From Bacteroidota bacterium (GTDB lineage Bacteria > Bacteroidota > Bacteroidia > NS11-12g > UBA9320), in the NCBI GenBank assembly GCA_013359235.1, contig JABWCE010000004.1, positions 106,555-170,554 of the forward strand: a stretch of DNA of 64,000 nucleotides. The letters are read 5' to 3'. The first letter of the stretch is position 1, and every line of letters begins with the position of its first letter. Position numbers and translations under genes: made by a program. The notes under the pieces were generated by a model. The model was given only the letters and a program-made list of their open reading frames with translations. It was not told the origin of the DNA and did not search any database. Shown here one piece after another: positions 49,357-54,170 of the stretch.

Positions 49357-49782
49357 TTACAATTTCCATTCAGCAAAGGTTTCATCTGTTTCAAAAATCT
49401 TTAACCCACTAAGAACAACGCCTTGAGGTAGTTTGTTTTTAAGTTTTTTTCTTATATATACCAATAAATTTTCTAAAGTAGGTTCTGCATCCCAAACTAT
49501 CAAATTTCCATGATTTGAAAACTCCGGATTTGTTTTCAAATAATTTTTTGATAATAAAAGTTTATGGTCGAAATTTGAAATAATCTCAGCTTTTATAATT
49601 TCTTTCAATTCTTCAAAATTTACTATATAACCTGGCGATTTTACATATTTTTCAATATCGTGTTTTGACGAAAATGTTACATGCAACTTATATGAATGAC
49701 CATGAATATATTGACAAACACCGGGAAAATTGTCAATTGCATGAGCCATTTCAAAATGGAAAATTTTAGTTAAACTAATCAT
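49357..49782 (-). CDS. queD: 6-carboxytetrahydropterin synthase / PTPS family (QueD-like)
   Basis: A 141-residue T-fold enzyme. Zinc ligands and catalytic Cys are in FHFEMAHAIDNFPGVCQYIHGHSY (CxxxHGH). DHKLLL supplies the catalytic Asp/His and the final ETDETFAEW supplies a Glu. It converts dihydroneopterin triphosphate toward queuosine or another pterin. Overlaps the NorB-like gene by 4 bases, so the two are translationally coupled, an unusual pairing. No queE, queC or queF is in the window. Confidence 0.9.
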   Translation of the reverse strand: MISLTKIFHFEMAHAIDNFPGVCQYIHGHSYKLHVTFSSKHDIEKYVKSPGYIVNFEELKEIIKAEIISNFDHKLLLSKNYLKTNPEFSNHGNLIVWDAEPTLENLLVYIRKKLKNKLPQGVVLSGLKIFETDETFAEWKL

Positions 49783-51152
49783 AATTCCGTTTTTTCAATT
49801 TGCTTACCTTCGGTATTCAAAATACAGAGGACCTGATTTTTTACAAGTGGATAAATAACCATAATAAGCCCTGTAGCAAGTACAGTACCTGCAATCAGAA
49901 ATGAATAAAAATAAGGTTTAAGCATTTCTTTCATTTCTGCAAAAGGTATTTGCTCTGTGCTCATTTGCCATTTTGACTTTAAAATACCGGCTATTATAAG
50001 CGAAATCCAAAATATAAATAGTGAAAAATTTGCAATCCAATAGCCAGATTTCATAAGTTTTTTATATGGTTCAAAACTAATACACGAATTGCTCAATGTT
50101 TCGTAAGCTATTGCTAAAAGCAGCATGGTGTTTATACCTATTGTGGTTCCCATTGTATGAGCTACGGTAATATGAGTACCATGTGTATAAAGATTTATTG
50201 CAGGAATTGACATCATAATTGCAAGCAAAAGGTTTAAAAAAATCCAAACATCGGCTGCTGCAAGAAACCTATAAGAAGAGCGGTAAAAATTCTTTTTTGC
50301 TTCTGATAATGTAGAATTCCATTTGTATATAATTCGTCCAATAATGAACAATTCGGTCATACTCACAAGATAACTGATATGTTTAATAAAATTATGGGTT
50401 GGTAATACATAAATATGATGCCCCCAGTTAAACATCAAATTAAACAAACCTGTAAAATACAAAGCAAAAGCAATATTAGAGCGGGCATAAGCCTTATTCC
50501 CGCTTATTTTATCCATTAAATAAATGCTGCAACCATAAATCAACATATTCCACGAACCAACCATTGAACCGTAAGATTTCCATTGTATTGTCATATCATT
50601 TACAACATTGTTTCTAAAATATGGGAATATCCAAAGATATGATTCTAAAAAAGTGAAAAGAAAAAATACTGTTCCTGTAAACCACATCCAAACATATACC
50701 GGATGATGTTTTATAGTTTTTATAGTTTTAATAAAATTTATAATAAACAATACCCAACCTAAAACAATAGGTAAAGCCAGCAATGGAGGGAACTCCCAAT
50801 ACTCTCTACCCCCAAAAACACCAAAGAAATATGAAATGAGAATAGCAATAAATGTAAATACAAAAAGTATAAGTTGAATTTTTATTAAGATTGATGAGTA
50901 TATTTTTTTTTGAGTATATTCAAGAATATAAGTCCAGGTACCTCCTACTGCCGTAATTATTATCCAGAAAATAACAGACGAAACATGCAATGGTCTTACT
51001 TTTTCGAATGATAAATATTCTTTAAAAAGACCCGGTATTATGTATTGAAAGGCTCCTACAATGCCAAATAGCAGCCCAAAAACTACCAGAAACAAACCTG
51101 ATAATATAAAGAGTTTTGGTGTTGTGATTTTTTCAGTATTCAATTGTTCCAT
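49779..51152 (-). CDS. NorB/CcoN-like heme-copper superfamily subunit I with altered ligands
   Basis: A 457-residue membrane protein with about 12 helices. RPLHVSSVIFW (H56) is the helix-II low-spin heme ligand region, GGREYWEFPPLLALPIVLGW is NorB-like, NWGHHIYVLPT (H245, H246) fits the helix-VII metal pair with E267 in SMTELF, and YTHGTHITVAHTMG (H332) is the helix-X region. In NorB this last motif ends AHxH; here Met334 replaces the second His. No His at all occurs between residues 150 and 245, so the helix-VI His and Glu metal ligands are absent (SYGSMVGSWNML is there instead). It may be a divergent NO reductase or a non-catalytic relative. Overlaps the cytochrome gene by 20 bases. Confidence 0.75.
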   Translation of the reverse strand: MEQLNTEKITTPKLFILSGLFLVVFGLLFGIVGAFQYIIPGLFKEYLSFEKVRPLHVSSVIFWIIITAVGGTWTYILEYTQKKIYSSILIKIQLILFVFTFIAILISYFFGVFGGREYWEFPPLLALPIVLGWVLFIINFIKTIKTIKHHPVYVWMWFTGTVFFLFTFLESYLWIFPYFRNNVVNDMTIQWKSYGSMVGSWNMLIYGCSIYLMDKISGNKAYARSNIAFALYFTGLFNLMFNWGHHIYVLPTHNFIKHISYLVSMTELFIIGRIIYKWNSTLSEAKKNFYRSSYRFLAAADVWIFLNLLLAIMMSIPAINLYTHGTHITVAHTMGTTIGINTMLLLAIAYETLSNSCISFEPYKKLMKSGYWIANFSLFIFWISLIIAGILKSKWQMSTEQIPFAEMKEMLKPYFYSFLIAGTVLATGLIMVIYPLVKNQVLCILNTEGKQIEKTEL

Positions 51153-51534
51153 CCTTGTTTATTTTATATGTACGTGGGTCGGCTTTACCGCTTTTATCCA
51201 TCATTTCAAGAAATGCTAAGAGTGATTTTATTTCGTCTTCACTAAAATTAAACTTTGGCATTATCTGCGTTCCTGATTGTAAAAAAGCTGCTATATATTC
51301 AGGTCCTCTTTTTGAATATACATTTGTGAGGTCAGGTCCTAAGTAGCCTCCAAGTCCATATACCTGATGACATGCATTACAATTGTATTTTTGCCACAAA
51401 TCCATACCTTTTACACATTGTTCTGAAATTTTTCGTTGCTTATACGGCAAAAATGTGTACAGATACACAGAATACGATAGAAAAGCAATCGTCAGAAAAA
51501 TAATCAAAACAAGTTTTTGTTTTTCCGATAGCAT
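51133..51534 (-). CDS. NorC-like membrane-anchored cytochrome c
   Basis: A 133-residue protein with one N-terminal helix (LVLIIFLTIAFLSYSVYLY) and a single c-type heme domain: YNCNACHQVYGLGGYLGPDL (CxxCH, C52, C55, H56) and Met92 in TQIMPKFNFSE as the distal ligand. The pattern WxxYNCxxCHxxxGxGGYxxPDLTNV is that of NorC. It would feed electrons to the NorB-like subunit, with which it overlaps by 20 bases. Its heme would need the Ccm proteins encoded at 36-40 kb. Confidence 0.9.
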   Translation of the reverse strand: MLSEKQKLVLIIFLTIAFLSYSVYLYTFLPYKQRKISEQCVKGMDLWQKYNCNACHQVYGLGGYLGPDLTNVYSKRGPEYIAAFLQSGTQIMPKFNFSEDEIKSLLAFLEMMDKSGKADPRTYKINKDGTIEY

Positions 51535-51617
51535 TTAATAAAAATAATAAAGGACAAAATTATCCTGATTTATTAATTTTGCCAAACGTTTTAAAATATT
51601 GCTCTTTAAAATTTAAA

Positions 51618-52643
51618 ATGAACGATAAGTTTATAAAAAAATACAGCTCGATGACAGGCAGTTCAAATACTGCATACATCGAAAAGTTATTACCTCTGAT
51701 TGAGGAAATAAAAGAATTGAAAAAAAAGCACAATGCAGTAGTACTTTCTCATTATTACATGACACCCGAATTGCAAATTGAGGAAAAAGAGGGTGGAATT
51801 GCTGATTTTGTAGGCGATTCGTTAGGCTTGAGTGTAGCTGCTACTAAAACCGATGCAGATTACATTGTTTTTTGCGGAGTAAAATTTATGGCAGAAACTG
51901 CTTTTATTTTAAATCCAAAGAAAACGGTTTTATTGCCCGATGACGATGCAGGGTGTTCGCTTGCCGAAAGTATCACAGGCGATGATGTTATAAAATTAAA
52001 ATCAAAATATCCAGGTATTCCCGTAATTGCTTATATAAATACTTATGCCGAAACAAAAGCCGAATGTGATGTGTGTTGTACTTCGCGAAATGCCATAAAA
52101 ATAGCCAAATCGTTCGAAAGTAAAGAACTTATTTTTATTCCCGATCAATTTATGGGACAAAATCTCGCTGTAAAATTTGCCACCGAAACCGATAAAAAAT
52201 TGATTTTATGGTCTGGCACATGTGAGGTTCATGAGCAATTTAGAACAAATATAGAAAGTTTAACTTTAGCAAATCCAGGCGCTGAACTATTGTTACACTG
52301 GGAAGTACCTCAAGAAACAGTTGAATCTACCCTTAAAAACAATAAAGGAATAGTTGGAAGCACTTCTGATATTTTGAACTATGTTGAAAACAGTAAATCA
52401 AGAGAATTTATTTTAGGTTCAGAATGTGACTTGGGTGCTACATTAAAAGGAATGTACCCCGATAGGCAATTTATAACACCATGTATAATGTGCCGTCACA
52501 TGAAACTTATAACTTTGCAAAAAACACTTGATGCACTTAGGTCAATTAATACCGAAACTGAAATAAAATATAAGATAAAAGTTGACGAACCTGTTTTATC
52601 AAAAGCTTATATTCCTATAAAACGAATGTTGGACTTAAGCTGA
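51618..52643 (+). CDS. nadA: Quinolinate synthase
   Basis: About 341 residues from the ATG at 51618; the ORF track begins at a TTG 13 codons earlier, which would add an unlikely extension. A [4Fe-4S] enzyme that condenses iminoaspartate and DHAP. The cluster Cys residues lie in DDDAGCSLAES, WSGTCEVHEQF and TPCIMCRHMKLITL. AVVLSHYYMTPE and FVGDSLGLSVAA are substrate-site motifs. Immediately followed by nadB (3-base gap). Divergent from the NorC-like gene. Confidence 0.96.
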   Translation: MNDKFIKKYSSMTGSSNTAYIEKLLPLIEEIKELKKKHNAVVLSHYYMTPELQIEEKEGGIADFVGDSLGLSVAATKTDADYIVFCGVKFMAETAFILNPKKTVLLPDDDAGCSLAESITGDDVIKLKSKYPGIPVIAYINTYAETKAECDVCCTSRNAIKIAKSFESKELIFIPDQFMGQNLAVKFATETDKKLILWSGTCEVHEQFRTNIESLTLANPGAELLLHWEVPQETVESTLKNNKGIVGSTSDILNYVENSKSREFILGSECDLGATLKGMYPDRQFITPCIMCRHMKLITLQKTLDALRSINTETEIKYKIKVDEPVLSKAYIPIKRMLDLS

Positions 52644-52646
52644 TAA

Positions 52647-54170
52647 ATGAAAACCCTCAAAACAGATATACTTGTACTTGGAAGCGGAATAGCCGGGCTT
52701 AGTTTTGCTATTAAAGCTGCAAAACTCGGCAAAGTATGTATTGCAACCAAAGCTGCTTGTGCCGAAAGTAATACACGACTTGCTCAAGGTGGTATTGCAA
52801 GTGTACAAGGTAAAGATGATTCTTTTAAATCTCATATACAAGATACTTTAACTGCAGGTGCCGGTCATTGTGATATATCGGCTGTAGAAATGGTTGTAAA
52901 AAAAGCACCAAAAATGATTGACGAACTGTACCAAATGGGAGTTAAATTCAATCTTTCTGAAAAAAACACACTTGATTTAGGTAAAGAAGGAGGACACTCC
53001 CACAACCGCATAGTTCATGTAGAAGACCGCTCTGGCATGGCTGTAGAAAATATTTTGCTTAAAAAAGCAAGAGAAAACAAAAACATTACATTTTATGAAT
53101 ATCATTTTGCAATTGATTTTGTTAAAAAAAATAAAAAATGCACAGGTGCAATAGTTTGGGATATTAAAAACAATGTAGATATTTTTTTTAATTCAAAAAT
53201 AACAGTGCTTGCCACCGGTGGAGCCGGGCAGGTTTATAAAACAACTACAAACCCCCCAATAGCTACAGGAGATGGAATTGCAATGGCGTATAATGCTGAT
53301 GTAAAAATAAGCGATATGGAATTTGTACAGTTTCATCCTACCTCTCTTTTTCATCCTAAGGCTAATGGATTTTTAATAAGCGAAGCTCTTAGAGGATTTG
53401 GTGCCGAATTATCTAATAAAGATGGCAAACCATTTATGAACCAATATCACGAAAAAGGTTCATTAGCTCCGAGAGATGTGGTTTCGAGAGCTATATTCAA
53501 CGAAATGAAAAAAAACAAAACCGAATGTATGTATCTAAATGCCACATTACTTGATAGTGATAGTCTTAAAAAAAATTTCCCCTCAATTTACAATACCTGT
53601 CTTGGCTTGGGTATTGATATCACCAAACAACTAATTCCAATAATTCCGGCAGCACATTACATTTGTGGCGGTGTAAAAACTAATCTTCATGGGCAAACAA
53701 GTCTCGATAGGCTATTTGCTCTTGGCGAGGTTTCTTGTACGGGATTGCATGGTGCAAATCGTTTAGCCAGCAATTCGCTTCTCGAAGGTCTTGTGTTTGC
53801 TGATGCCGCAATTAATTTTATAAAAAAAAACTTTATTAAATTAGAAAATATTGATGAAAATGAAATTTTAGATATAAACTTTAATAAAAAACCTTTGAAA
53901 ACTAACATTCAGATTTCAAAACTTGAAAACAAAATAAGAGAAACCATGTGGAAATTTGTTGGTATTGTGCGTAAAGCCGAAGGTTTAAAAAAAGCCGAAC
54001 TTATCTTAAATGAAATTGAAAAATCAATAAATTTATTGCTATTAAATTATAAAAAAAATCAAGAATTAATAGAACTTCGCAATTTGTTAATCACTTCAAA
54101 AATAATTACTTCGGCAGCAATAAAACGTAAACACAGTTTGGGCACACATTTTATTATTGGAAACCAATAA
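52647..54170 (+). CDS. nadB: L-aspartate oxidase
   Basis: A 507-residue FAD enzyme that makes iminoaspartate for NadA. The Rossmann motif is DILVLGSGIAGLSFAIKAAK near the N-terminus, with TRLAQGGIASVQG, EGGHSHNRIVH and GEVSCTGLHGANRLASNSLL. The C-terminal succinate-dehydrogenase-like helical domain is present. Shares a transcript with nadA. nadC, the next step to NAD, is not in the window. Confidence 0.96.
   Translation: MKTLKTDILVLGSGIAGLSFAIKAAKLGKVCIATKAACAESNTRLAQGGIASVQGKDDSFKSHIQDTLTAGAGHCDISAVEMVVKKAPKMIDELYQMGVKFNLSEKNTLDLGKEGGHSHNRIVHVEDRSGMAVENILLKKARENKNITFYEYHFAIDFVKKNKKCTGAIVWDIKNNVDIFFNSKITVLATGGAGQVYKTTTNPPIATGDGIAMAYNADVKISDMEFVQFHPTSLFHPKANGFLISEALRGFGAELSNKDGKPFMNQYHEKGSLAPRDVVSRAIFNEMKKNKTECMYLNATLLDSDSLKKNFPSIYNTCLGLGIDITKQLIPIIPAAHYICGGVKTNLHGQTSLDRLFALGEVSCTGLHGANRLASNSLLEGLVFADAAINFIKKNFIKLENIDENEILDINFNKKPLKTNIQISKLENKIRETMWKFVGIVRKAEGLKKAELILNEIEKSINLLLLNYKKNQELIELRNLLITSKIITSAAIKRKHSLGTHFIIGNQ

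Follow-up and report, generated by a model that had tools for sequence, protein, structure and literature searches.

A conserved NorB-like family of Bacteroidota without the helix-VI FeB ligands and with methionine at a heme b ligand position

We describe a NorB-like gene in a 64,000-nucleotide stretch of DNA from a Bacteroidota bacterium (assembly GCA_013359235.1, contig JABWCE010000004.1, positions 106,555 to 170,554; the whole stretch is called the window here). Its product has neither the His nor the Glu with which helix VI of NorB ligates FeB, and it carries Met in place of the second His of the low-spin heme b. About 120 distinct sequences share this pattern without exception, and comparison with the closest fetched relative (L003, 88% amino acid identity) gave a nonsynonymous divergence (dN) of 0.08 against a near-saturated synonymous divergence (dS) of ~2.6, so that the gene is under strong purifying selection. 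Because the pattern is shared so widely and dN is this low, it is not due to chance, and a pseudogene or a frameshift, the latter raised in a first-pass annotation of the window as a possible explanation, is ruled out.

The open reading frame (ORF) encodes 457 residues from an ATG start and is open throughout. The first-pass annotation had placed it at 49779-51152, and these coordinates stand, with the strand corrected to minus; the plus strand over the same interval has many stops. In the Pfam scan the protein matched COX1 (PF00115) with 131 bits against a curated cut-off of 34.8, while its sole NCBIfam match, ccoN, reached 78.7 bits against a cut-off of 583. Among solved structures the best sequence match is the cNOR NorB subunit 4xyd (profile E=1.9e-28), ahead of the cbb3 chains. 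The NorB framework described earlier (RPLH, REYWEFPPL, GHH, SMTE and YTHGTHITVAHTM) was found in full in the translated ORF; as also described, no His occurs between residues 150 and 245, and the AHxH motif reads AHTM. The gene, the codons at its ligand positions and its two flanking genes are as follows.

49779..51152, minus strand: NorB-like heme-copper-type subunit without canonical FeB ligands (ORF; Pfam COX1 E=7e-38; best solved relative 4xyd)
50985..50987, minus strand: His56 codon, helix II, low-spin heme b ligand in cNOR (aligned; His in 120/120)
50571..50573, minus strand: Tyr194 codon, position of the FeB-ligand His in cNOR/qNOR (ungapped register by spacing; varies Y/N/A/S/G/M)
50559..50561, minus strand: Val198 codon, position of the FeB-ligand Glu (register by spacing; V119 T2)
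50415..50420, minus strand: His245-His246 codons, the two retained helix-VII FeB-ligand His (121/121)
50352..50354, minus strand: Glu267 codon, position of the second-sphere active-site Glu, SMTE (121/121; MAFFT-aligned)
50157..50159, minus strand: His332 codon, position of the heme b3 proximal ligand (121/121)
50151..50153, minus strand: Met334 codon, position of the second low-spin heme b His (Met in 121/121; no gap to H332)
51133..51534, minus strand: NorC-type membrane-anchored cytochrome c of 133 residues, with CNACHQVYGLGGYLGPDLTNV and then MP (20 bp overlap with the NorB-like start)
49357..49782, minus strand: QueD/6-pyruvoyl-tetrahydropterin-synthase (PTPS)-like gene, directly downstream (overlaps the NorB-like stop codon; linked in 33/80 loci)

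A search for orthologues by scanning species genomes gave 206 candidates and 80 loci and revealed a large family that shares the pattern and comes almost entirely from Bacteroidota. Residues were tallied first on 81 sequences and later on ~120 distinct ones; in both sets H56, E117, Q190, W191, K192, G195, G199, W201, N202, H245, H246, E267, H324, H332 and M334 are invariant. Four of the six canonical His ligands (H56, H245, H246 and H332) are kept, and in an ungapped alignment of helix X every member has Met in place of the second His of HxH. To fix the register of helix VI, we counted back from the helix-VII HH pair: throughout the cNOR and qNOR sequences checked, this leads to the ligand His after 51 residues and to the ligand Glu after 47, and the same spacing leads in the family to Tyr194 (Y81 N32 A2 S2 G2 M1) and Val198 (V119 T2). 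MAFFT aligned the helix-VI stretch without gaps and agreed with Tyr194/Val198, and hhalign gave the same register from position 195 on, with a gap placed before it. The "G/G" pair that the first-pass annotation had put at these positions is one residue off, Gly195 and Gly199 being the neighbors of Tyr194 and Val198; a single-sequence phmmer alignment contains a one-residue gap that would give Gly195. None of these readings gives the window protein a His or Glu at the helix-VI ligand positions. In cNOR structures, the changed positions hold half of the four FeB ligands and one member of the axial pair on the low-spin heme b. The variant proposed earlier is borne out as a conserved one by the ~120 sequences, and the further suggestion of His/Met heme ligation with a reduced metal site is a plausible prediction from the residues at these positions.

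We placed the family among its relatives with a tree of 56 sequences, in which all 26 family members form one clade (100/99), next to clades for cNOR (98/96), qNOR plus NOD-like proteins (100/99) and Bacteroidota cbb3 CcoN (100/100); the tree is unrooted with long branches, and its claim is that the family is not nested in cNOR, qNOR or cbb3 as sampled. The family is best read as a third NorCB lineage, separate from cNOR and from qNOR/NOD. It resembles cNOR (PDB 3o0r, 4xyd) in being a NorC-NorB two-gene unit that matches the profile over its whole length, with a GREYWE motif (GREFLE in cNOR), the helix-II His, the helix-VII HH, the active-site Glu (E267) and the heme b3 His. It differs from cNOR in having Tyr/Asn and Val for the helix-VI FeB ligands and Met for the second heme b His, in having no NorQ/NorD nearby, and in forming a clade of its own. 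qNOR (NorZ) and the putative NO dismutase (NOD) belong to the same superfamily, and NOD is a NorB relative whose FeB ligands are also altered; however, the family lacks the fused N-terminal cytochrome-like domain of qNOR (~750 residues), having instead 457 residues and a separate NorC. In NOD, Asn replaces the second His of helix VII and Gln replaces a Glu nearby, the signature on which our NOD label is based (PMC3413370), and the helix-VI ligands and HxH are retained, whereas all family members keep the helix-VII HH and Glu. CcoN of cbb3, the only NCBIfam match and far under its cut-off, has the helix-VI CuB His and HxH that the family lacks, and the family stands apart from the cbb3 proteins of the same genomes. 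The proposed or proven NO reductases bNOR, eNOR, sNOR, gNOR and nNOR are of the same superfamily but are set apart by their published classification as B-type NORs (PMC11388526), the family being closest to cNOR and cbb3; the literature alone served to reject Murali-type B-family NORs as its closest relatives. A scan of a plasmid collection gave only distant canonical NorBs. No earlier description of the family was found in the literature searched, although subscription journals or supplements may hold one.

A c-type cytochrome lies directly upstream of the family gene in 77 of the 78 loci where this could be tested, with the consensus NC.aCHQ.yGLGGylGPDLTn...MP. The FeB insertion genes NorQ and NorD are both found near norB in all 14 Bacteroidota cNOR loci fetched, vs none of the family loci, as judged from the locus neighborhoods (L093 and L094 are canonical cNOR loci). 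NorQ and NorD are required to insert FeB into cNOR, and NorCB produced in the absence of norQDEF has its full set of hemes but neither FeB nor activity; in qNOR such helpers are not needed and FeB is present (PMC9976466). The absence of NorQ/NorD near the gene agrees with the loss of a normal FeB site, without being proof of it.

We then determined how the family is distributed in a sample of 396 Bacteroidia genomes, each at least 90% complete, where whole family matches score from 388 bits and the next COX1 relatives at most 63 bits. The gene is present in 79 genomes, about one in five, and clade II NosZ in 139. NosZ occurs in 70 of the 79 family genomes vs 69 of the 317 others (odds ratio 28), and about half of the nosZ-bearing genomes (70/139) carry the family gene. 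The canonical NorB profile, A2, matched 35 genomes, including 13 that carry the family gene; when the sequences in these 35 were read, 11 genomes turned out to hold NOD-like proteins with HN in helix VII, and five to hold true qNOR. Eight of the 11 NOD-like genomes are family genomes, and once NOD-like matches are removed, a canonical NOR and the family gene occur together only in G113, G173, G183, G252 and G307, leaving 74 of the 79 family genomes without canonical cNOR or qNOR. A simple role of the family as stand-in for canonical NOR was nevertheless rejected, because, in a count made before the NOD-like matches were split off, canonical NOR was found in 12/70 vs 12/69 nosZ genomes with vs without the family. 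The tie to nitrite reductase is weak: NirK is found in 38 of the 396 genomes and 16 of the 79 family genomes (an enrichment with an odds ratio of 3.4), and the cd1 profile gave one match among the 79. Of the 14 genomes that have nirK and nosZ and no canonical NOR, eight carry the family gene. The genome of the window itself encodes NosZ and one other COX1 protein besides the NorB-like gene, and searches with the canonical NorB, NirK and cd1 profiles found none of the three in it; it is a non-denitrifying nitrous oxide (N2O) reducer carrying the NorB-like gene. Two irregularities were seen among family members: G064, G110, G140, G176 and G404 have one or two in-frame stops within the matched stretch, which may reflect assembly errors, end effects or decay, and the family locus L049 is labeled Candidatus Competibacteraceae (Gammaproteobacteria), which is likely a mis-binned Bacteroidota contig or else a transfer.

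The surroundings of the gene say the same as its distribution, namely that the genome context of the family points to nitric oxide (NO) and N2O metabolism. In L186, a single same-strand run comprises an Rrf2 regulator, a membrane protein, QueD, cytochromes, a NorC-like gene and the family gene, and continues with cytochrome c, NosZ, NosL-like, NosD, NosF and NosY (NosL-like, NosD, NosF and NosY being named by position and resemblance). Elsewhere nosZ lies 3-25 kb off on the same contig, in ~18 of the positions compared. Within 6 kb of the family gene, across 80 loci, we counted Rrf2 in 38, QueD in 33, a thioesterase in 25, a DGC-domain protein in 19, NOD-like genes in 15, RIC in 11 and an FNR-type regulator in 10, and DUF2249/DUF1858 proteins also occur; the canonical cNOR loci have Rrf2 in 6/14, RIC in 7/14 and QueD in 0/14.

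A link to a characterized organism comes from Cloacibacterium. Strain CB-01 is reported to have a "cNor" but minor NO reductase activity (PMC11168931). We recognized Cloacibacterium genomes by the genus-specific 16S primers of that study, and both primer sites were found ~560 bp apart in five genomes of L055's family; the genomes of L054, L055 and L066 were negative in this test. In four of the five (G542, G555, G565 and G574) the family gene, at 515 bits, is the sole NorB-like gene, and no canonical NorB was found, profile A2 returning the family gene and CcoN-size proteins of at most 54 bits. The fifth, G498, has neither the family gene nor canonical NorB. The genus has been described as having one branch with "cnorB" and one without (PMC11879220). 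From the four genomes of the genus, we infer that the cNor of CB-01 belongs to the NorB-like family.

What the complex does may be considered from its residue pattern and conservation, its partner gene, its separate clade, its genome context and the absence of NorQ/NorD near the gene, from which predictions follow on how its hemes are ligated, what metal it holds, which way electrons move and what it does with its substrate. We lean, tentatively, toward the reading that the protein is the large subunit of a third-lineage NorC-NorB complex with a His/Met heme b, in which the normal FeB site is gone and which has a role in NO/N2O metabolism other than efficient NO reduction. Electrons would enter at the heme c of NorC and travel to heme b3 on His332 by way of a low-spin heme b with His56 and Met334 as its ligands. 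The normal FeB site would be lost, two of its four ligands being replaced and the FeB insertion genes being absent near the gene. The remaining His245, His246 and Glu267 might hold a metal differently, the simplest guess being a 2-His-1-Glu site, or might gate gas binding to a lone heme b3. Since these three residues are strictly conserved, the distal site is probably active rather than a relic. The complex would act alongside nosZ, NO-type regulators and sometimes a NOD-like enzyme, most likely by binding NO or converting it slowly, which would keep NO away from N2O respiration. Several points weigh against this reading: the invariance of the helix-VII His pair and Glu267 is more in keeping with metal binding and catalysis than with a dead site; the NorQ/NorD counts cover loci only, and qNOR without NorQ/NorD still has FeB (PMC9976466); the Cloacibacterium link comes from four genomes of the genus and not from CB-01 itself; and the co-occurrence counts ignore shared ancestry. 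A version that we consider possible but somewhat less probable is that a 2-His plus Glu site replaces FeB next to a His/Met heme b and carries out a reaction of NO or another N-oxide that differs from that of cNOR, is tied to N2O respiration and NO dismutation, and has been mistaken for cNOR in surveys.

The chief rival is that the family is a true NO reductase with a non-canonical site, for example with FeB on His245, His246 and Glu267, which would provide the N2O that NosZ reduces and would be the "missing nor" of those Bacteroidota in which nir and nosZ occur without a recognized nor. The tight link to nosZ, the nirK enrichment, the eight of 14 nirK- and nosZ-bearing genomes described above, the NorC partner, the GREYWE motif and the retention of His245, His246, Glu267 and His332 all favor it, as does a published count in which, once sequences without the conserved ligands had been excluded, 9% of the Bacteroidota carrying denitrification genes combined nir and nosZ with a lack of nor (PMC12569097). 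We consider it unlikely all the same: most family genomes have neither nirK nor nirS, the presence of the family is independent of the absence of canonical NOR, and the NO reductase activity of CB-01 is reported to be minor (PMC11168931). This minor activity and the absence of FeB insertion genes near the gene also speak against an ordinary NO reductase.

A non-catalytic complex of hemes b, b3 and c that serves NosZ or periplasmic cytochromes as an electron donor or buffer would suit the nos operon of L186, the nosZ genes in 70/79 family genomes and the lost FeB ligands, and a Met-ligated heme b is expected to be high-potential. We find this improbable, however, because nosZ is missing from nine of the 79 family genomes, the family is missing from 69 genomes with nosZ, the residues of the distal pocket are conserved as strictly as the heme ligands, and no quinol site was identified. 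Less probable again is a sensor of NO or O2, or an inactive homologue retained for NO binding; the Rrf2-type regulators near 38/80 loci, the RIC and DUF2249/DUF1858 proteins nearby and the low NO turnover reported in Cloacibacterium fit such a role, but the protein has no output domain, and the NorC donor co-encoded in 77/78 loci would be superfluous for a sensor. That the protein is an ordinary cNOR that takes its FeB ligands from other residues, with a misleading alignment, is very improbable despite the whole-length profile similarity to cNOR. The register is fixed by spacing, residues 151-244 hold no His, and the other invariant His, H324, lies within YTHGT and is also invariant in cNOR and hence not free; NorQ/NorD are, moreover, absent near the family loci.

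In many habitats, clade II nosZ is found chiefly in Bacteroidota (PMC12569097, PMC11409646). Production of N2O from NO decides whether organisms with nosZ are pure N2O sinks, and genomes are scored for it by norB calls. Half of the sampled nosZ-bearing Bacteroidia genomes carry the family gene, without the residues that define NOR. Field trials aimed at reducing N2O emission have used Cloacibacterium, and in those of its examined genomes that have a NorB-like gene, the family gene is the sole one. Many "nor" calls are in error should the family not be an NO reductase; should it be one, NORs do not require the FeB ligands in the way now accepted, and the family would be the missing nor of nir- and nosZ-bearing Bacteroidota as counted in PMC12569097.

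Several neighboring genes recur around the family gene. The QueD/PTPS-like gene is a recurrent link to the NorB-like gene, and in the window their stop and start codons overlap. NOD-like genes (HMW[AV]E, SHNFY, NHGH) stand beside the family gene in 15/80 loci, often divergently at ~400 bp (L006:3206-5620 and 14 similar loci; L164, L165, L166, L189, L190, L196). One NOD-like copy is adjoined by another at L197:5594-7939, which carries AHNFY and HATSFTHAHAH and sits on a long branch. A membrane protein of ~400 residues with HSHSHxAFxGW and no Pfam match was seen repeatedly, both in nos clusters and close to the family gene (L200:8905-10125, L186:11614-12804, L202:4964-6178, L077:2866-4086). A 430-residue protein with a sub-threshold COX1 match lies near the family gene at L046:8926-10218 and in seven similar loci, and may be a further degenerate heme-copper relative. 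In the window, nadA and nadB (51579-54170) adjoin the NorC-like gene, and they are found near the family gene in ~12 other loci too.
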